Virus record (IMG/VR): IMGVR_UViG_3300027869_000164
Location: 1-37,374 of that record
Length of the DNA: 37,374 bases
DNA from: a virus
Reading direction: 5' to 3' (one strand)
Below the pieces are notes generated by a model. It saw only the letters and a list, made by a program, of their open reading frames with translations, made no database searches and had not been told where the DNA came from. Every line of letters begins with the position of its first letter. Positions within the stretch are counted from its first letter, which is position 1. This document shows positions 20,601-33,860 of the stretch, piece after piece. The translations under genes and the position numbers were made by a program.

Positions 20601-21075
20601 GAAGCGGAAGTCGGCCTACCTGACCAAGGTCCAGGACGAGCAGAACAAGCTCGAGATCAACCTCGCCCGGGCGCAGCTCGCCGAGAAGAACGCCGGCCTG
20701 AATCAGCAGGCCCTCGACCGCGCCTACAAAGCCGAGAAGCGGGCGCTGGACGCCGAGATCGAGTTCTATCGCAAGGAGTCGCACGACCAGGATCTCGCGC
20801 TCGCCGAGCGGCAGAAGTACGCGAAGCTCGCGATCGCTGCCGAGGCCGCGAAGCTCAAGATCGGCAAGGAGAGCGCGAAGCAGCTGCTCGAGCTCAAGAA
20901 GGCCGAGGCGCAGGTCCTCGTCGACCTCCAGACGATCCTCCAGAACTACGCCCCGAACGTCTTCCCGCAGAAGCCCGACGTTCACGTGCACCAGCACTTC
21001 CCGAACGGGCCGACCGACCACCACCGCCAAGCCAGAAACGCGCTCGTCGCGGTCCGCGCCGCATTCGACTCCTAG
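17668..21075 (+). CDS. Tail tape measure protein
   Basis: This 1135-residue protein sets tail length and is probably ejected ahead of the DNA. Residues about 130-400 match the TP901/PhageMin_Tail core (FNGSMRLIQTQAGASAGEVN, LSTKYLPVAKQLGIPLDQAG, FTRAGVPAESAATNLTTAL, FGAFGGVRGG). Hydrophobic segments lie at about 459-485 (ALLGIVAIGGPLLLFVGSVI) and 565-600 (Gly-rich). The C-terminal half is helical with Lys/Glu-rich coiled coil from about 910 to 1090. GGAGGTG at 17654-17660 is a good Shine-Dalgarno for the ATG. It is the longest gene in the window, as usual for this family. Confidence 0.92.
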   Translation: MPFGEEILAAQADVVYATNLGQFKVDQAEIEAVYARTTGAMSDEALKLSIAQERLNRAIAQQGPESLAAGRATVAYRAQLDELAASEVATAAAADKASQQRLASYAGAARSVGSTLTRYVTAPTALAAAAAVKLAFDFNGSMRLIQTQAGASAGEVNYASGAILNLVSSGNSFGQTANDMSKGLFEVESEGIRGARAMEILRVAAAGAAVGGTDLIQTANALTSAMRVYDVSAGGAAKTQATLNAIVGAGKLHLDDLVAALSTKYLPVAKQLGIPLDQAGAALTVFTRAGVPAESAATNLTTALTKILSPSKTAAASLGQLDLNSSQLANDLQNGGLTSALATLSKHYDQLVASQGKVAANQAIFGAFGGVRGGASILTLVQQYSQYVQGLDEIQRKANPGTFWSDVAVTMREPANQVHQDIAKIGADLIEVGNKLAPLVVDVVGGVAHIADAIGKLPGPAKDAAAALLGIVAIGGPLLLFVGSVIRGVEAIDRAWGKMTGSATAAVTTSDEQLAILRTNAAETATALETAGTEGGAGLAAGVGAGVTAAEADLTSLGVAEAGVAAEGGGIGLLGGGIGLGAIGRAGAYGIGGLVAGQLIQSVVPGQTGQTLGSVAEYAGLGAALGSFVGPEGTAIGAGVGAIVGGITSLIHDGPSFVQQMDAMGQSVSRFNETAAASAHAITQLHQQIANDRVGRDQAQQELIAAQAEEKATRGTNQHADAVDRLRAAQANLSAATQQVTTDTAKATQAQKTHEAAVRAASKQTALEEEALFKQVADQAQQAQHIVDVGMEGGTVYTADATTAAKRYVDQLTALANSAQSSQPKLAAVFRELAQIAANVHRIPSEKTVRIVIKEIYDAKPSKGGGILGEIAGGIESALKNVGKEAAKYAKTHHIHAPTPFTTTIPIGLQINLQRAQNANDVGAERRYLDEEKAFLQRELAKAEKAKNKQDELAALQALGAVDSQLSTLQTKSTSAGKKRKSAYLTKVQDEQNKLEINLARAQLAEKNAGLNQQALDRAYKAEKRALDAEIEFYRKESHDQDLALAERQKYAKLAIAAEAAKLKIGKESAKQLLELKKAEAQVLVDLQTILQNYAPNVFPQKPDVHVHQHFPNGPTDHHRQARNALVAVRAAFDS

Positions 21076-21537: not shown

Positions 21538-23661
21538 ATGCTGATCGCGGTCGCGAACTACAACGACAACAACGTCGCGATCATCGAGACAGACGGCTGG
21601 ACCGTCCTTAGAACAGTCGCAGTCGGCTCCGAACCGATCGGCGCCGCGGCCGCACCCGACAACTCGTTCATCGCCGTCCCGAACAACGGGGACGGGACGG
21701 TCTCGATCATCGAGACGACCGGCTGGACCGTCACCCACACCATCACCGTCGGAAGCAACCCCTATCCGTGCGCGATCGCCCCGGACGGCTCGTTCATCGC
21801 CGTCCCAAACGATGGGGACGGGACGGTCTCGATCATCGAGACGACCGGCTGGACCGTCACCCACACCATCACCGTCGGAAGCTGCCCCTATCCGTGTGCG
21901 ATCGCCCCGGATGGTTCGTTCATCGCCGTCCCGAACCTCGCGGACGGGACGGTCTCGATCATCGAGACGACCGGCTGGACCGTCACCCACACCATCACTG
22001 TCGGCACGGAACCTGTCTGGTCAGCGATCTCGCCCGACGGATCCTTCGTCGCCATCGCCAACGACAGCGACGGAACCGTCTCGATCATCGAGACGACCGG
22101 CTGGACCGTCGCGCACACCGTCACCGTCGGCACGGGACCCTACGGCGTCGCCGTGTCACCGGACGGATCGGCGGTAGCCGTCGCGAACGACGGGGACGGG
22201 GCGGTCTCGATCATCGAGACGACCGGCTGGACCGTCACCCACACCATCACGGTTGGCGCGGAGCCGCTCGGGACAGCATTCGCTCCCGACGGCTCATTCA
22301 TTGCGGTCTCCAACTACGGCGACGGGACCGTCTCCATCATCAAGACCTCCGACTGGACGGTCACCCACACGATCACCGTCGAAGGCGGCATCGGCGGCAG
22401 CCTGTGGGGGCTCGGTGTGCTCGATCTCTATCCGCCAACCGACGGCGTCTGGACGTTCGAGCTGTGCGACCAAGTCGACGTCTCGCTCGCCGACATCACC
22501 CACCTCGTGACCGCGGTCATCAGCCCACGCCTGAACCGGCCGTTCGCGGTCCCGTTCGCCGCGGCGGCCGACCAGGACGTCTGGAAGACCATCCACACCG
22601 ACGGCGATCGCTACCTGTCCGAAGGCATTCGCACGATCAAGGGGTACCGCAACGGCGACTTCATCGCGAACCTCGAGATCTGGCGTCTCGACTACGTCGG
22701 CGACGAGAACAACCAAACCGTCGTCATCACCTGCTTCGACTCGATGGTCCGCACCGCCGGCCGCAGCGTCCGCGACGACGACGGCCGCATCTCCGACTGG
22801 CAATTCTCCGACCCGCTCCACGCCGGCCCATTCGTCAAGGAGCTCTTCGCGAACAGCATCACCTACGACGACGACAACGTCCCCGACGGCACGCCGCGCA
22901 TCTTCCCGATCGACGCCGTCAGCGGAGACTTCACAGCCGACTGCGACGTCACCAACGACTACGCCGACGGCCCGATGACACTCGGCGACCTCATCTACCG
23001 GACGATCTGCGACGTCGGCCTCGCCGACATCATGCTCACCCCGACCGACACCGCGCACGGAAGCGACCCCGGCATCTACGGGATCCTCCACTGCGTCACC
23101 CACTGGGGCACGGACAAGAGCGCGGCCGTCCACTTCGACTACGCGACCGGCGAAAACAACGTCGCGAAGGCCAGGCGCACCTTCGACATGGCGACGCTCA
23201 CGAACCGCCTCCGCTATCTCCTCGGCCCCAAGCTGCGACCCAACCACTGGCGCGCGACCCTCCAGGCCACCGACCCCGGCCTCGGCACCACCCACTACCG
23301 GACGATCCAGGCCAACTCGCGCGCGAGGTACGGCACGCTCCGAGCGTGGGAAGTCTTCTCGAGCAACACCGCCAGCGAGCTGAAAGAGCTCTACCGCAGC
23401 CTCTGGAAAGTCGAGGACGAGCTCCGCGTCAACCCACGCCAGCTCCTCTACATGACCCCCGCGGGCAACTGCCTCTTCCAGCCTTTCACCGACTACAACG
23501 TCGGCGACCTTGTCACCGTCAACGTCGGCGACGACCTCGGCCCCGCCTTCGCCGGCGTCCAACGCATCTACGGCTTCGACGTCACCGTCGATGTGAACGG
23601 CGTCGAGACCGTCGGCGAGCTCATCGTCAGCCCCGACGGCGCCGCCTTCCCGCCCTCCTGA
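21538..23661 (+). CDS. Tail-hub protein (Gp37-like) with N-terminal seven-unit propeller
   Basis: This is a 707-residue protein. Residues 3-296 are seven repeats of exactly 42 residues, each with the core DGTVSIIETTGWTVTHTITV and PDGSFIAV, the pattern of YVTN-type beta-propellers. Seven units would close one propeller. From about residue 300 on, the sequence resembles actinophage tail-tip proteins of the ReqiPepy6 Gp37-like group (WTFELCDQVDVSLADITHLV, GDRYLSEGIRTIKGYRNGD, DNVAKARRTFDMATLTNRL-like segments). The propeller may bind a host receptor or sugar, placed at the tail tip by the hub domain. The DNA repeats are nearly identical, so the array is young or kept alike by recombination. Confidence 0.8.
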   Translation: MLIAVANYNDNNVAIIETDGWTVLRTVAVGSEPIGAAAAPDNSFIAVPNNGDGTVSIIETTGWTVTHTITVGSNPYPCAIAPDGSFIAVPNDGDGTVSIIETTGWTVTHTITVGSCPYPCAIAPDGSFIAVPNLADGTVSIIETTGWTVTHTITVGTEPVWSAISPDGSFVAIANDSDGTVSIIETTGWTVAHTVTVGTGPYGVAVSPDGSAVAVANDGDGAVSIIETTGWTVTHTITVGAEPLGTAFAPDGSFIAVSNYGDGTVSIIKTSDWTVTHTITVEGGIGGSLWGLGVLDLYPPTDGVWTFELCDQVDVSLADITHLVTAVISPRLNRPFAVPFAAAADQDVWKTIHTDGDRYLSEGIRTIKGYRNGDFIANLEIWRLDYVGDENNQTVVITCFDSMVRTAGRSVRDDDGRISDWQFSDPLHAGPFVKELFANSITYDDDNVPDGTPRIFPIDAVSGDFTADCDVTNDYADGPMTLGDLIYRTICDVGLADIMLTPTDTAHGSDPGIYGILHCVTHWGTDKSAAVHFDYATGENNVAKARRTFDMATLTNRLRYLLGPKLRPNHWRATLQATDPGLGTTHYRTIQANSRARYGTLRAWEVFSSNTASELKELYRSLWKVEDELRVNPRQLLYMTPAGNCLFQPFTDYNVGDLVTVNVGDDLGPAFAGVQRIYGFDVTVDVNGVETVGELIVSPDGAAFPPS
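21544..22425 (+). repeat. Seven 126-bp in-frame tandem repeats
   Basis: The anchor GTCTCGATCATCGAGACGAC (or close variants) occurs at 21574, 21700, 21826, 21952, 22078, 22204 and 22330, always 126 bp apart. Units 2 to 4 are nearly identical at the DNA level; units 1 and 7 are the most diverged. Each unit encodes one propeller blade. Confidence 0.92.
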
Positions 23662-25788: not shown

Positions 25789-26078
25789 ACACCATCAAGA
25801 ACGGCATCAAGCGCCTCGCCGCGGTCGTCAACAAGCCGCGCGTCATGCACTACGCCGACATCTTCATCGCCGGCACCGTCACCGCGCTCTACTGGAACCG
25901 CGACCAGCTGCTGAACGCGCACGGCCTGAACATCGTCGGCTCGATCGCGTTCGGCGCGTGCGTCGCCGGCGGCAAGGCCGTCGTCGAAGCATTCCGCAAG
26001 GACTTCACGCCGCCGAGCTCGCCGCCGAGCTCGACGCCCGCCGACACGACGCCCCAGCAGGACACGCCCGCTTCGTGA
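25785..26078 (+). CDS. Holin candidate
   Basis: This 97-residue protein has two likely membrane segments, about 25-42 (ADIFIAGTVTALYW) and 48-65 (GLNIVGSIAFGACVAGG). The Lys/Arg-rich N-terminus and hydrophilic Pro/Ser/Thr-rich tail fit a class II-type holin. It begins on GTG overlapping the endolysin stop and ends overlapping the next GTG. Holins have little sequence conservation, so the call rests on topology and position. Confidence 0.65.
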   Translation: MNTIKNGIKRLAAVVNKPRVMHYADIFIAGTVTALYWNRDQLLNAHGLNIVGSIAFGACVAGGKAVVEAFRKDFTPPSSPPSSTPADTTPQQDTPAS

Positions 26079-26599
26079 CGCCCTCGCTCTGGAACGAGCT
26101 CCGCGCCCTGATGCCGGCACCGCTGCCGGCCAAGTTCCCGAGCGACACCGTCGTCCTCTTCCCACCGCGCGACAACGCCGCCGGCGCCCTGCAGCTGCTC
26201 GCCGCGAACAGCGCGATCGCGGTCAACGGCTCGATGTTCACGTACACCGACAAGGCCCTCCACGCGATCCTCAAGACCAAAGCCGCGGCCGCCGGCTACG
26301 ACCTCCAGCTCGTCCTCGACGAGACCCAGGCCAAGACCGTGCCGGCAATGGCAGCCCTCGTAGCCGACTGGGCAGCCGACCCGCGCATCCTCATCGGCAA
26401 CAGCGAACACGGCGCCTACATCCACCGCAAAATCTGGGTCTTCGACCACGAGTACGTCGTCGACGGCTCCACGAACACCACCCACTCCGGCGAAGCGCTC
26501 GAGGACAACTCCCTCACGATCGTCCGGAACGCGCCACTCGCCGCCTACTACGAGACCGCGCTCAACGCCAACGCCCAACGCCTCAAGCCAGCCGCATGA
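26075..26599 (+). CDS. Half-size phospholipase-D/Nuc family protein
   Basis: This 174-residue protein has a single HKD motif. His117-x-Lys119-x4-Asp124 occurs in IHRKIWVFD, followed by GSTN at 131-134 and EDNSLTIV at 143-150. Full phospholipase D enzymes carry two such motifs; proteins with one, like the nuclease Nuc, act as dimers. It could cut DNA or phospholipid. Its place between a holin candidate and the end of the late operon suggests lysis or host DNA breakdown. No signal peptide is visible, so it likely acts in the cytoplasm or is released at lysis. Confidence 0.78.
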   Translation: MTPSLWNELRALMPAPLPAKFPSDTVVLFPPRDNAAGALQLLAANSAIAVNGSMFTYTDKALHAILKTKAAAAGYDLQLVLDETQAKTVPAMAALVADWAADPRILIGNSEHGAYIHRKIWVFDHEYVVDGSTNTTHSGEALEDNSLTIVRNAPLAAYYETALNANAQRLKPAA

Positions 26600-26790
26600 A
26601 CGGAACGGCCGAACCGGTCGTCACCGAGCACGGCAAGGTCGAAGCCTGGCGACTCCACGTCCTAATCGAAGCCGGCTACCCACTCCCACTCGCCGAACGG
26701 CTCGCCGCCAGCGACGCCGACCTCCACGCCGCCTGCCAGCTCCTCAAGCGCGACTGCGCGCCCGAGACCGCCGCCGAGATCCTGCTCTGA
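26596..26790 (+). CDS. Small helical hypothetical protein
   Basis: This 64-residue protein contains VEAWRLHVLIEAGYPLPLAE and an Ala/Leu-rich helix (LHAACQLLKRDCAPETA). Similar small proteins occur in actinophages, but I know no function. It starts in an ATGA overlap with the Nuc-like gene and ends 6 bp from the stop of the convergent lipoprotein gene. It is the last gene of the late operon. Confidence 0.55.
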   Translation: MNGTAEPVVTEHGKVEAWRLHVLIEAGYPLPLAERLAASDADLHAACQLLKRDCAPETAAEILL

Positions 26791-27403: not shown

Positions 27404-27620
27404 GCAGGCCGGCGGCGCTGAGCATCTCGAGGAGATACTCGGCCCGAGGCGCGTGCGCGCCGGCGAGCCACTTCCTGATCGTCCCGGCGTTCTCGCCGTA
27501 AGGGTCCATCCCGATCGCGCGTGCGAGCTTGGACGGCGAACCTCGACCTTCTAGCTCGAGCCTGCTCATCGCGAGCGCGATCACGCGCGCCGTGGGGCTG
27601 TCGGCGTTGTGCTCAGGCAA
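27273..27620 (-). CDS. HTH transcriptional regulator (immunity region, leftward)
   Basis: This 115-residue protein has a helix-turn-helix at about 28-55 (SPSKLARAIGMD, NAGTIRKWLAGAHAP). Further helices follow (EYLLEMLSAAGLLTPEADRA) and an Ala/Arg-rich C-terminus. It starts on TTG 27620 and faces away from the second regulator, with 90 bp between them. This divergent pair is the usual layout of a lysogeny switch. Which of the two is the main repressor cannot be read from sequence. A weaker start codon fits a low-level regulator. Its 3' end overlaps a possible plus-strand ORF. Confidence 0.7.
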   Translation of the reverse strand: MPEHNADSPTARVIALAMSRLELEGRGSPSKLARAIGMDPYGENAGTIRKWLAGAHAPRAEYLLEMLSAAGLLTPEADRAWRGDAARAARAAGEDAAAAATRVRQRRSPREGTGT

Positions 27621-27661
27621 GGCAACGTCACCGTAAGAGGTTCACGCGGGCAGCTCCACAC

Positions 27662-27675
27662 GGTCAGATTTGACC
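27662..27675. promoter_or_regulatory. Operator-like palindrome between divergent regulators
   Basis: GGTCA-GATT-TGACC is a perfect 14-bp inverted repeat. It covers the -35 box (TTGACC) of the rightward promoter, so a bound repressor would block that promoter. Confidence 0.6.
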
Positions 27676-27702
27676 TGCTACATCCGATGGGGTATTTATC
27701 TT
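27670..27702 (+). promoter_or_regulatory. Rightward early promoter, leaderless type
   Basis: TTGACC (27670-27675) is followed after 17 bp by TATTTA (27693-27698), overlapping TATCTT (27697-27702). The ATG of the rightward regulator lies 8 nt after TATCTT, leaving almost no leader. The stretch is A/T-rich against its surroundings. Confidence 0.65.
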
Positions 27703-27710
27703 CCCGCGCT

Positions 27711-28058
27711 ATGCAAGAAGCACCCGCCCTGAACCCCGCCCGGATCGAAAATGCTCGCCTCGCGGCGAACATGTCGCGAGCCGATCTCGCCTTCGCTGTC
27801 CGCGACGTGACGAACGGCCGGCTCAAGCCGACCGAACAGACGATCCGCCGCTGGAGCCAGGGACGCCACATCCCGCGCGAGGGCGCGATCGCCGCGATCG
27901 CCGTCGCCACCGGGCACGAGATCTCGTTCTTCTACGAGCAGGACGCCGGCGGCGACGACGAGGAGGAGGCCGAACTGCTCCGCGATCTCCAGCAGCTGCC
28001 GGGAGACCTTCGCCTTCGCGTCGAGCGCGCGCTCAAGCGCGCACGGAGCACCGCGTGA
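27711..28058 (+). CDS. XRE-type HTH regulator (immunity region, rightward)
   Basis: This 115-residue protein has an XRE-type helix-turn-helix at about 10-75: ARIENARLAANMSRADLAFA, TEQTIRRWSQGRHIP, then AAIAVATGHEISFFY. An acidic hinge (GGDDEEEAE) leads to a C-terminal helix (LPGDLRLRVERALKRA). The frame is open upstream to 27609, but the ATG at 27711 lies at the expected transcription start, so a leaderless message is likely. It heads the rightward early operon, which suggests a Cro-like or repressor role. Confidence 0.75.
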   Translation: MQEAPALNPARIENARLAANMSRADLAFAVRDVTNGRLKPTEQTIRRWSQGRHIPREGAIAAIAVATGHEISFFYEQDAGGDDEEEAELLRDLQQLPGDLRLRVERALKRARSTA

Positions 28059-28929: not shown

Positions 28930-29040
28930 GCCGTGGATGTCTCGTCGGTCGTCGCGAGGCTACGGCCTCACGTCAGTGACGAACGCTCTCGCCTCGTCGA
29001 CGGCGACGAACAGGCGCGGCTCGTTGCGCGGCTGCTTGAG
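28930..29040 (+). other. Region between convergent genes, possible gene remnant
   Basis: A GTG at 28933 opens a frame that reads like protein for about 45 codons (SSVVARLRPHVSDERSRL, EQARLVARLLELARDRDA). It then runs antisense through Ku. It could be the 5' stub of a gene interrupted by arrival of the Ku gene, or chance. No terminator is evident. Confidence 0.3.
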
Positions 29041-29880
29041 CTAGCCCGCGACCGGGACGCGCGCGCGCGCCTTATGTCGCCGCGGGGCCTGCTTGACGCT
29101 GCGACGGAGGGCACCCTCGAGGTCAGCGATCGGTCGGGCGGCCCGCTCGTCCTTCTTCACGGTCGGCCGGATGAACGGCTCGCCGGCGAGGAGCCGCTCG
29201 CGCAGCTCGAGCAGGCGCGGCTGCTCGAGGCCGACGAGATCCTTCTCGGGCACGAGGCGCCGAGTGTGCCGATGGACGAGCTCGCGGGCGAGCTCGAGGA
29301 GCTCGTCGCTGACCGGGCGCGTCTTGACGCCGAGCCGGTCGGCGAGATCGGCCGGCTTGGCTTCGGCGAGATCCTCGTGGAAGTAGAGGACTGCGAGGTC
29401 GAGGAGTCCGTCGCGGCTTTCGATCGCTGCGACCTTGTCGCCGCGCCAGTTGAATCGGACGATCGCGGCGACGTCGAGGTCGGCGATCGCCGAGCGGAGA
29501 AGGACGTAGGCGTCGAGGCCGACCGGGCTCGAGGGGAGCAGGTGGTAGTGCTTCTTGACGAGGCGCGGGTCGATCGACGCCGACGGCGTGAAGCAGCCGA
29601 TCGGGATGCGGCGAGAGTCCGGCTCCTTGATGGCGCTGAGGTCGTCCGGGAGGGGCGCCTGAAAGCTGCCGCCCGGGGCGATCTCGAACGCGAGCGCGAT
29701 CTCTTCCGGCTCGAGCAGATCCTCGTCGACCTCGCAGTACGGCAGCATCCGGATCGGGCTCCCGCACGCAGCGTGGATCTGCCGCAGCCCCGTCTCGGGG
29801 TCACGGACAGCGGTCGCGAGACCGACCGGGACGACGAGCTCGCCGAGCTCGAGCGTTCCCTTCCACAGCAGCTTCTCCAC
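29041..29880 (-). CDS. ku: Ku DNA end-binding protein
   Basis: This 279-residue protein matches bacterial and phage Ku. The opening LLWKGTLELGELVVPVGLAT corresponds to the usual WKGxxxFGLVxxPV start. RQIHAACGSPIRM, DLLEPEEIALAFEI, then IDPRLVKKHYHLLPS, and AYVLLRSAIADLDVAAIVRF complete the Ku core (to about 170). A basic tail ends the protein. Ku threads onto double-strand ends and recruits ligase; mycobacteriophages Omega and Corndog use Ku to circularise genomes with host LigD. No ligase gene is present here. An ATG at 29922 extends the frame by 14 codons, but those codons are poorly G/C-biased, so GTG 29880 is preferred. It is the only minus-strand gene of the early block. Confidence 0.85.
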   Translation of the reverse strand: MEKLLWKGTLELGELVVPVGLATAVRDPETGLRQIHAACGSPIRMLPYCEVDEDLLEPEEIALAFEIAPGGSFQAPLPDDLSAIKEPDSRRIPIGCFTPSASIDPRLVKKHYHLLPSSPVGLDAYVLLRSAIADLDVAAIVRFNWRGDKVAAIESRDGLLDLAVLYFHEDLAEAKPADLADRLGVKTRPVSDELLELARELVHRHTRRLVPEKDLVGLEQPRLLELRERLLAGEPFIRPTVKKDERAARPIADLEGALRRSVKQAPRRHKARARVPVAG

Positions 29881-29920
29881 CGCGCGAAGAGTAGGCGTAC
29901 TTCTGGACGGAGCGAGATCC

Positions 29921-30133
29921 ATGCCTGAGCCTGATCGTCACGACGCCCTCGCGTCGAGGCTCGCGCCGGTCTTGCGCGCGATCGACCTCGCCGAGGCCCA
30001 CACCGGCTGCCGTTCGATCGTCGATGCCGTCGACTACGCGTGCGACCAGCTCGGGATCCCGCTCGACCGCGACCGCAGGGTCGTGCGTCGAGCCGTCATG
30101 CGTCGCTGGCTCAACAAGAAGCGGGTCGCGTAG
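29921..30133 (+). CDS. Small basic protein before initiator
   Basis: This 70-residue protein has helices SRLAPVLRAIDLAEAHTG and SIVDAVDYACDQLG and a basic end (VVRRAVMRRWLNKKR). Small regulators of replication look like this, but no family is recognised. GGAG at 29909-29912 is a fair ribosome site. The 40-bp interval to Ku's preferred start would have to hold promoters for both. Its TAG overlaps the initiator GTG by one base. Confidence 0.55.
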   Translation: MPEPDRHDALASRLAPVLRAIDLAEAHTGCRSIVDAVDYACDQLGIPLDRDRRVVRRAVMRRWLNKKRVA

Positions 30134-31449
30134 TGGGCTGGCGTGCGACGGCCGAGGTGTACGAGCACTCGCGCCACGGCGGCGGGAAGTTGCACGTGAT
30201 GCTCGCGATCGCGGAGAAAGCCTCGAACGACGACGGGGTCGCGTTCGGGATCGACCAGGGCTGGCCGCGGGGCGAGACTAACCTGCGGCGCAAGCGCGAG
30301 ACGATCGCCGGCAAGGCGCGCCTCGACCCTGCGACGGTCTCGCGTGCGATCCGAGACCTCGTCGCCGACGACGAGCTCGAGGTCAGGTGGGTGCGACGGG
30401 GCCAGGCCAAGTGGGCCGTGTACCGGCTCATCGTCGGCGACTTCCGCCACAGGCACGTCGACGTCGACCACCTCGAGCGCCACGGCCAGCATCTCGACCG
30501 GCCGTTCTCGACGCCCGAAGAACTGCTCCTACCCGTCGCCGAGCGGGGCGGAATCGACCTGCTCGAGCCGACCGAAGTACCTGACGTTTCGTCAGGTACT
30601 TCCGGGGGCGCCGGAGACGCCGACCACCTTGCATTCGATCAGGTCGCACCTGACGAAAAGTCAGGTTCGCACCTGACGAGAGATCAGGTGGGTCCTATAT
30701 CTACGCGCGCGCGCGGGTCCAGAACTACCGTCCAGCAGCAGGTCCACAAGCCCTCAAGGTCTGAAGGGCTAGAGGGCGGACAAGAATCTGCTGCTGCAGA
30801 ACCCGAGGTCACGCGCGCCGAGGTCGACGAGATCGTGCGCGGCCTCCGCGGCGCCGACTCCTCGTCGACGAGGACGGTGTACCCGCTCGCGACGAGCCTG
30901 CCGCCGGCTGTGTTCCGCGACGTCGTCGCCACTACGCGCGAGCGCTGCCGCAGCGGCACCGTCGCGAACCCGTGCGGCCTCCTCGTCTCGCTGCTCAAGG
31001 CCAAGCACGCCGAGCAGCTCGCCCAGGCCACCGCCGCCTTCGTCGCCGCGACCTCTGAGCGCGCCCGGGCGTACACGCCCGGGCCGGGACACTCGGATCA
31101 GCTCGTCCGCTGGGCACCCGAGCGGTACGTCCGCCTGCTCGCGCCGCACACCGACGACGGCGCCCTGCGCGCACGGCTCGAGGTCGACCACAGCGACAAG
31201 CTCGACGCGCTCCTCGAGCTCGCCGCCGACGTCCGCGCCGGCCGCGTCCCGCCGGCTGAACCCGAGACACCCGAGCAAGCCCGCGCGCGCTGGGTCGACG
31301 ACCAGGCCGCCGACCCCGAGTTCCCGCTCGAGGAGCTCGCCGCGGTCGTCACGAGCTGGGACGGCGTCGACGAACTCGAACGCCAGGAGCACCTCGAGCG
31401 CGCCGAACAGCGCCGCGCGGCCGCGATCGCCACAAAGCAGGCCGCATGA
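30133..31449 (+). CDS. Replication initiator-type protein with internal origin
   Basis: This is a 438-residue protein. The N-terminal domain (about 5-105) is a winged helix of the phage initiator type: HVMLAIAEKASNDDGVAFGI, DPATVSRAIRDLVADDELEV, KWAVYRLIVGD. Residues 145-225 are a low-complexity linker whose DNA carries three ACCTGA/TCAGGT palindromes. The C-terminal part is helical, with a segment TSLPPAVFRDVVATTRERC and a Pro/Glu-rich end. This layout, with origin iterons inside the linker of the initiator gene, is the lambda O/ori plan. It starts on GTG 30133. No helicase or loader gene is visible; host enzymes are presumably recruited. Confidence 0.75.
   Translation: MGWRATAEVYEHSRHGGGKLHVMLAIAEKASNDDGVAFGIDQGWPRGETNLRRKRETIAGKARLDPATVSRAIRDLVADDELEVRWVRRGQAKWAVYRLIVGDFRHRHVDVDHLERHGQHLDRPFSTPEELLLPVAERGGIDLLEPTEVPDVSSGTSGGAGDADHLAFDQVAPDEKSGSHLTRDQVGPISTRARGSRTTVQQQVHKPSRSEGLEGGQESAAAEPEVTRAEVDEIVRGLRGADSSSTRTVYPLATSLPPAVFRDVVATTRERCRSGTVANPCGLLVSLLKAKHAEQLAQATAAFVAATSERARAYTPGPGHSDQLVRWAPERYVRLLAPHTDDGALRARLEVDHSDKLDALLELAADVRAGRVPPAEPETPEQARARWVDDQAADPEFPLEELAAVVTSWDGVDELERQEHLERAEQRRAAAIATKQAA
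30574..30689. repeat. Iteron cluster, candidate replication origin
   Basis: Seven half-sites ACCTGA/TCAGGT lie at 30579, 30592, 30639, 30648, 30661, 30671 and 30684. They form three inverted pairs with 7-bp spacers (30579-30597, 30648-30666, 30671-30689). The first pair sits in a perfect inverted repeat with 13-bp arms around TTT (30574-30602). A short A/T stretch (CCTATATCT, near 30694) follows directly. Confidence 0.82.
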
Positions 31450-32504: not shown

Positions 32505-33860
32505 ATGGCAGTAGCCGTCACACCCGAACCCGACCTCGCGGAGACCGCCGCCGCGCAGACGATCGAGGATCTTCAGCTCTCCGCGATCACGCCGGCGCCG
32601 GACAACCCGCGCAAGACGCTCGGCGACGTCGACGAGCTCGCCGCGTCGATGCGCGAGCTCGGCCTGCTGCAGCCGCTCGTCGTCACGCCCCGCAAGGGCA
32701 AGTTCATGGTCGTGTGCGGCCACCGTCGGCACGCGGCCGCGAAGAAGGCCAAGCTCGAGACCGTCCCCGCGATCGTGCGCGACCTCGACGAGCCGCAACG
32801 GATCAAGGCGATGCTCGTCGAGAACTGCCAACGCACCGACCTGACCGCGCTCGAGGAAGCGCGCGCCTACGCCCAGCTCGTCGAGCTCGGCCTCACCCAG
32901 CGGCAGATCGCCGATGACGTCGGCAAGACGCAGGGGCACATCTCGAAGCGGCTCTCGCTGCTCCGGCTTCCGAAGGACGTGCTCGGCAAGGTCGATTCCG
33001 GCGGAATATCGATCGCCGATGCGCTCGAGCTCGTCGCTCTCGTCGACCACCCGGCCGCGATGAAGAGCGCGCTCGCCCGGATCAAGAACTGGAGCTGGAG
33101 CGCGACCAGCGCGGTCAGGCACGAGCTCAGCCAGATCGCCATGGACGAGAAGCGCGAAGCGGAGATCGAGCGCGTGAAGGCCTCCGGCGTCCGCTACCTC
33201 CCGATGCCCGGCCAGTACGACGAGCTGCCGAAGGACACGATGCGTGTCGACCCGACCCGCGGCTGGGACTCGCTCCCGATCAAGGTCGGCGCCCACAGCA
33301 AGCTCGACTGCCACGCCGCAACCGTCGACCGGCACGGCACCCGCGTCTACCTCTGCACCGACCCGAAGAGCCACCCGGCCGAGCTGAAGAAGGTCAGCTC
33401 GTATTACCTCAGCGGCGGCTCGTCGACGCAGAGTTCCCAGCAGCGCGAGCACCGCCAGATCCAGAAACTCCGCGGCCCGCGGCGCGAGCTCGCCGCGGAG
33501 ATCGCGACCAGCAGGCTCCCGAAAGCCGACCACGCGAAGCTGCTCCTAGACACGCTGATCGCCTCCGCGCACTCCGAGGTTCTCAAGGTCGCATGCCAGA
33601 TGCTGCTCCCCGACCGTCCCGCCGGCAACGGGTACCGCGACTTCGGCGACGCCCTCCGCGAATACGCGACCACGCCGGCGAAGCAACTCCACGTCGAAGC
33701 CGCCATCGCGTTCGCGACCAGCGAAGAGCACCTCGGCGTCTACTACGACTGGCACCAGCACGCGCCCTACCTCGAACTCCTCGAGCGGCACGGCTACACA
33801 CTCGACCCGCTCGAGGCGAAAAAGATCGGCCGAAAGGCCACCGCGAAGGCCGCAGCCTGA
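32505..33860 (+). CDS. parB: ParB-family partition protein
   Basis: This 451-residue protein has a full ParB layout: NPR (34-36), VCGHRRHAA (70-78, the GxRRxxA CTP-binding box), ENCQRTDL (106-113), and the helix-turn-helix TQRQIADDVGKTQGHISKRL (131-150) that reads parS-like sites. The C-terminal 250 residues are longer than in chromosomal ParB. AAGGGAG at 32488-32494 supports the ATG. No ParA/SopA gene is visible. Palindrome copy 4 lies in frame in this gene and brings in codons GGA ATA. It may bind the dispersed palindromes; partition, packaging or gene silencing are possible roles. Confidence 0.85.
   Translation: MAVAVTPEPDLAETAAAQTIEDLQLSAITPAPDNPRKTLGDVDELAASMRELGLLQPLVVTPRKGKFMVVCGHRRHAAAKKAKLETVPAIVRDLDEPQRIKAMLVENCQRTDLTALEEARAYAQLVELGLTQRQIADDVGKTQGHISKRLSLLRLPKDVLGKVDSGGISIADALELVALVDHPAAMKSALARIKNWSWSATSAVRHELSQIAMDEKREAEIERVKASGVRYLPMPGQYDELPKDTMRVDPTRGWDSLPIKVGAHSKLDCHAATVDRHGTRVYLCTDPKSHPAELKKVSSYYLSGGSSTQSSQQREHRQIQKLRGPRRELAAEIATSRLPKADHAKLLLDTLIASAHSEVLKVACQMLLPDRPAGNGYRDFGDALREYATTPAKQLHVEAAIAFATSEEHLGVYYDWHQHAPYLELLERHGYTLDPLEAKKIGRKATAKAAA
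32995..33007. repeat. 13-bp dispersed palindrome, copy 4 (inside parB)
   Basis: ATTCCGGCGGAAT; the 16-bp block 32994-33009 is identical to the one at copy 1. It forces the rare Ile codon ATA, as in copy 2. Confidence 0.7.

Follow-up and report, generated by a model that had tools for sequence, protein, structure and literature searches.

The question raised by this locus is why a phage gene for a replication initiator should carry a cluster of palindromic repeats within its own coding sequence. The window, that is, the whole stretch of DNA analysed (37,374 bp, IMG/VR record IMGVR_UViG_3300027869_000164), contains at 30133-31449 on the plus strand a gene for an O-like replication initiator of 438 residues with a GTG start. 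The mechanical ORF extends to 30040, and the start at 30133 agrees with the aligned N-termini of the initiators of both relatives described below. A winged-HTH-type N-terminal domain, predicted to bind DNA from alignments and from hhalign comparison with annotated O proteins, is encoded at 30133-30552 on the same strand, and its candidate recognition helix was located by alignment as PATVSRAI, at about residues 66-73. A helical C-terminal domain, presumed to contact the replisome, is encoded at 30805-31449 (plus strand); its last 55 or so residues are conserved in one of the relatives, G002, and it did not match any known family. Structure prediction with AlphaFold gave pLDDT values of 46 for the whole initiator and 37 for the N-terminal domain alone, a confidence too low for use. 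Across the linker between the two domains, codon adaptation drops from about 0.7 to 0.2-0.4 and GC3 goes down from about 0.9 to 0.45-0.65. Given both drops, the linker DNA appears to be read for something besides protein.

The linker-coding part of the gene contains the three exact ACCTGA-N7-TCAGGT palindromes claimed in the preliminary description, at 30579-30597, 30648-30666 and 30671-30689, and the first of them does form the core of a perfect inverted repeat with 13-bp arms, GAAGTACCTGACG-TTT-CGTCAGGTACTTC, at 30574-30602. The extra half-site that had been reported, TCAGGT, is present at 30639-30644 but does not stand alone. It is the better half of a degenerate palindrome with two mismatches, ACCTTGCATTCGATCAGGT (30626-30644), whose counterpart in the relative G001, ACCTCGCAAAAGATCAGGT, is likewise two mismatches off. 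Therefore, the window has four 19-bp units: iteron 1 (core 30579-30597), iteron 2 (30626-30644), iteron 3 (ACCTGACGAAAAGTCAGGT, 30648-30666) and iteron 4 (ACCTGACGAGAGATCAGGT, 30671-30689), with spacings of 47, 22 and 23 bp. No further exact copy was found anywhere in the 37,374-bp record, and one other match with up to two mismatches lies at 20618. Another TCAGGT, standing alone at 30383, has no counterpart in the relative and was set aside as probably due to chance. The observed number of matches was reached in none of 100 dinucleotide shuffles of the whole window, and synonymous-codon resampling of the initiator gene never produced more than one such palindrome in 5000 rounds, compared with three observed. 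Both tests exclude a chance origin of the repeats.

Conservation of the repeats could be followed in G001 (IMGVR_UViG_3300036900_000306, 37,427 bp), the sole close initiator homologue found in IMG/VR, with 62% identity over 429 residues. A DNA pattern scan of IMG/VR with ACCTGA-N7-TCAGGT-N1-8-ACCTGA gave 22 matches, of which G001 is a true relative; the others, judged from the surrounding sequence, appear to be chance occurrences or repeats of unrelated coding sequences. Against the origin reading, a single relative sharing the repeats was found, and no more than two genomes have the close initiator. The first three units are present in the G001 linker at the same place as in the window, together with the left half alone of iteron 4, and 28 of the 29 bases of the inverted repeat at 30574-30602 are unchanged. 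Between 30570 and 30700, codons are identical at 24 of 26 shared residues that could vary synonymously. Over the repeats and the next block, 36 of 41 codons are identical compared with 134 of 223 elsewhere (Fisher p = 6e-4), and the linker residues flanking the repeats have diverged. The recognition helix of G001, which accompanies the same repeats, is PATVSRSI. At the genome level, the initiator region is common to both phages, and the matched virion genes are divergent and in opposite orientation. In gene order, G001 looks circularly permuted relative to the window, which together with the inverted virion genes suggests a near-complete circular map with module exchange.

A short A/T-rich stretch had also been noted after the repeats, and it was found as CCTATATCTA at 30694-30703, about 10 bp directly after the last iteron. 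It lies within 30575-30774, the 200-bp segment with the highest A+T content in the window and a putative unwinding region that ranks second least stable there at 30, 60 and 120 bp; the least stable DNA at 60 and 120 bp is the start of a repressor-like gene at 27.6 kb. The homologous stretches are also near the top for A+T in the parts of G001 and G002 examined, and G002 carries CCTATCTATAGATC where the window has its A/T patch. In the window the shortness of the patch and the (CG)6 run that comes after it count against an origin. This run begins a conserved block, (CG)6-GGGTCCAGAAC-N-ACCGTCCAGCAGCAGGTCCA (30704-30746), in which 42 of 43 bases are the same in G001 and which is possibly a second origin element. 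Further downstream, CTGCTGCTGCAGAA (30788-30801) is complementary to CAGCAGCAG of this block, and the pair, which is conserved in G001, could form a stem. The stem CAGCAGCAG/CTGCTGCTG is marginal (z about -2, with 9 of 200 shuffles folding equally well in the window and again in G001), and it was not seen by eye in G002. A DnaA-box-like GTCCACA near 30742 was dropped, being absent from G001. The GC-skew check that had been proposed turned out to be unhelpful: no origin signature was found in the window, and the positive skew to the left of the gene, at 28.5-30 kb, was rejected as origin evidence since it overlaps a Ku gene on the minus strand and its sign is opposite to that expected of a bidirectional origin.

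Used as a direct query, the window initiator gave nothing significant against phages, plasmids, PDB, NCBIfam and genome contigs, and its direct matches to replication families were weak (best E 0.013-0.097). The link to O-like proteins was obtained through G002 (IMGVR_UViG_3300015199_000013), which was reached by searching with the region neighbouring the initiator. Its initiator (L034:9160-10035) is homologous to the window protein at both ends, with E values of 1.4e-18 and 8.7e-16 for the two-sequence profile. The G002 protein matches PHROG 391, "replication initiation O-like", at E 5.4e-11, along with several other initiation families, and the annotated "DNA replication protein O" of Escherichia phage mEp554 at E 8e-7. 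A profile of the three N-termini aligned with an O-like profile of annotated O proteins (hhalign Prob 93.9, E 1.6e-7). The N-terminal homology to the O-like family is thus firm via G002 and weak directly. The family Phage_rep_O (PF04492), to which lambda O itself belongs with an E value of 5.7e-36, was not matched by the window initiator or its relatives. The O-like arrangement also includes a repeat cluster in the linker-coding part of the gene and easily melted A/T-rich DNA beside it, and both were found here, though just about 10 bp of A/T-rich DNA directly adjoin the repeats.

The G002 linker contains four units of its own, GTCTCA...TGAGAC, at the same place as the window iterons, directly followed by CCTATCTATAGATCTTGATCC and further A/T-rich DNA. 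Its recognition helix reads RATAFRAI, compared with PATVSRAI in the window, and the repeats differ too. A concerted change of helix and repeats would be predicted for an N-terminal domain that recognises the repeats, with the reservation that three genomes are few.

To evaluate how general this arrangement is, 16 O-like initiators (one of them lambda O) and 12 control genes were surveyed with a blind search for the densest cluster of 6-mers. In all 16 initiators this cluster falls in the early to middle portion of the gene, at 0.26-0.56 of the gene length, and it beats shuffles of the gene's own codons (≤5/200) in 12 of the 16, compared with none of the 12 control genes. The annotated iterons of lambda were recovered by the same blind test. 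Among the initiators that failed are S1249 and AP22, in which repeats are visible but double as code for repeated peptides, a feature that the shuffle retains. A further O-like initiator gene, in IMGVR_UViG_3300038379_000300, lies directly upstream of a probable replicative-helicase gene and its linker (L038:906-1034) contains three 20-bp palindromes, GGTGACAYAGCTRTGTCACC, that are almost perfect; this linker is a strong candidate for another internal origin.

In phage lambda, four 19-bp iterons lie in the middle of the O gene together with an A+T-rich tract, and the binding of O dimers to the iterons, the formation of a nucleoprotein complex, melting and helicase loading are established (PMC3985674, PMC7466680, PMC5043065). 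The window shares with lambda O and its origin a DNA-binding N-terminus of the initiator (predicted in the window), four palindromic iterons of approximately 19 bp in mid-gene, spaced by about 20-24 bp in lambda, and an A/T-rich stretch directly downstream of them. In contrast, the iteron sequence is unrelated, the first unit is set apart by 47 bp instead of 20, the A/T-rich patch is much shorter and sits in a 69% GC genome, PF04492 is unmatched and a P gene was not recognised in the window. The idea, put forward at the outset, that the locus follows the plan of lambda O and its origin is sustained as far as can be read from the DNA, by the HTH domain linked to O-like initiators via G002, the four units, the stretch predicted to melt easily, the conservation of the repeats in one relative and the occurrence of other repeats at this position in a relative whose recognition helix differs. 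The O-like initiators of PHROG 391, 8540 and 4617, with HTH_36-type N-termini (among them the "DNA replication protein O" of Escherichia phages mEp554 and mEp044 and the O protein of Pseudomonas phage MD8), have the same N-terminal domain as the window protein by profile comparison and via G002, and they likewise carry phage-specific linker repeats. Their C-terminal domain, however, cannot be aligned with that of the window, the mEp repeats are of a different, GTGTCA type with a 23-bp period, and several neighbours of such genes encode a P protein, whereas the window does not visibly do so. The RepA-type origins of the extrachromosomal mycobacteriophage prophages Miko and Rachaly resemble the window in having, in an actinobacterial phage, an HTH initiator gene with an origin suspected inside it or beside it (PMC7157519). 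In those prophages, a search around repA gave no repeats, and they possess parABS; the window has four repeats, and ParA was not found.

Since palindromes of this kind may serve other proteins, alternative roles were considered. The strongest rival explanation is that they are parS-like sites for the phage ParB-like protein encoded at 32505-33860, located in the initiator gene by chance or through coupling. A ParB with ParB_N and HTH_ParB domains is indeed encoded 1 kb downstream in the window and also in G001, and both phages share the repeats. This explanation is nevertheless improbable, since no ParA was present among the proteins scanned, the repeats are confined to the initiator linker and repeats are general to the O-like initiators of many phages. 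In addition, repeats of another sequence occupy this position in G002, whose 32-kb, possibly fragmentary record yielded no ParB, and the parS of mycobacteriophages has another architecture, consisting of arrays of 8-bp direct repeats (PMC7157519). There is likewise little probability that the palindromes are operators through which the initiator or a phage repressor controls transcription through the gene, with no role in an origin. The 19-bp dyads do resemble the operators of HTH dimers, and a repressor-like gene lies at 27609-28058, but copies are absent from all promoters and intergenic regions of the window, a promoter-like site was not found around the repeats, and an operator would require neither the low stability of the duplex nor the conserved block downstream.

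A function in RNA, with the repeats folding in the early transcript as hairpins for termination, attenuation or processing, is highly improbable. The first inverted repeat is very stable (-15.1 kcal/mol folded as DNA, z -7.5), but it is not followed by a T-run on the plus strand, the one terminator-like match is weak and only on the minus strand, no Rfam family was matched, and the fourth unit and half-site in G001 form no strong hairpin. That the repeats merely reflect chance or low complexity at the protein level has a negligible probability, although the linker is of low complexity and tolerant: even two such palindromes were never reached in the 5000 codon-preserving resamplings, and the relative keeps the same codons while the flanking linker residues diverge.

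The repeats are thus very probably the iterons of a phage replication origin located within the linker-coding part of an O-like initiator gene. The repeats, their position, their conservation at the DNA level, the low stability of the region and the O-like kinship of the initiator are shown by the sequences, and the following steps are proposed from them. The N-terminal winged-HTH domain would bind each 19-bp palindrome, probably as a dimer, as suggested by the symmetry of the palindromes and by lambda O. Three of the four units are spaced by 22-23 bp, about two helical turns, and the four bound units would wrap into an O-some of the lambda type, which would open the adjacent DNA of low stability at about 30690-30775. 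Recruitment of the host's replicative helicase, either direct or via a loader, would then fall to the C-terminal domain. This helicase loading is the least certain step, because the neighbouring and downstream genes tested included none recognisable as a lambda P-like loader or a DnaB helicase; a loader is possibly present among the neighbours in a form that cannot be recognised. A bolder proposal, considered rather unlikely, is that the locus represents a distinct sub-type for very GC-rich DNA, with (CG)6-GGGTCCAGAAC-N-ACCGTCCAGCAGCAGGTCCA and CTGCTGCTG as a second element and with the helicase recruited by the C-terminal domain independently of a P-like loader. In such a sub-type, the second element might act as stress-driven Z-DNA, a hairpin or a site for a host factor.

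Several other features of the window were recorded. A Ku homologue (PF02735, E 1.6e-18 to 4.6e-23) is encoded in each of the three phages, immediately upstream of the initiator gene and on the other strand (window 29041-29922, L031:16062-16910 and L034:8082-8933, all on the minus strand), and a gene called on the plus strand at 28933-29928 was rejected as a shadow of it. In mycobacteriophages Corndog and Omega, Ku joins the genome ends together with host LigD, and by analogy the phages of the window, G001 and G002 may circularise in this way. The ParB-like protein at 32505-33860 has 53-57% identity in G001, and a second ParB_N-like protein is encoded at 590-1609. After the tail tape measure gene, gene 21538-23661 contains a 126-bp tandem repeat (21574-22381, 6.4 copies, 78% match) that encodes beta-propeller-like repeats, and its product is possibly a receptor-binding protein that varies by repeat recombination. 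A tRNA-Arg (TCG) was predicted at 26585-26677 on the minus strand, antisense to a small gene at 26596-26790 that has a counterpart in G001 with 74% protein identity. One of the two predictions, tRNA or ORF, may be spurious, or the site may be what is left of an attachment site. A PLD-like domain protein (PF13091) is encoded at 25958-26599, adjoining the endolysin, and has 52% identity in G001.

An earlier-described origin for this phage lineage was not found in the literature. What is new here is the iteron sequence, while an O-like initiator with an internal iteron origin is already known. The locus adds a predicted lambda-type, self-contained cassette of initiator plus origin from an uncultured, soil-type, GC-rich phage lineage, and the plan of placing a phage's own repeats in the linker of its initiator recurs across the O-like initiators of very different phages. 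This recurrence offers a route from sequence alone to phage origins and to matching HTH domains with the DNA that they read. The segment of about 1.3 kb is predicted to be a ready-made replicon, provided that the host contributes the other components.
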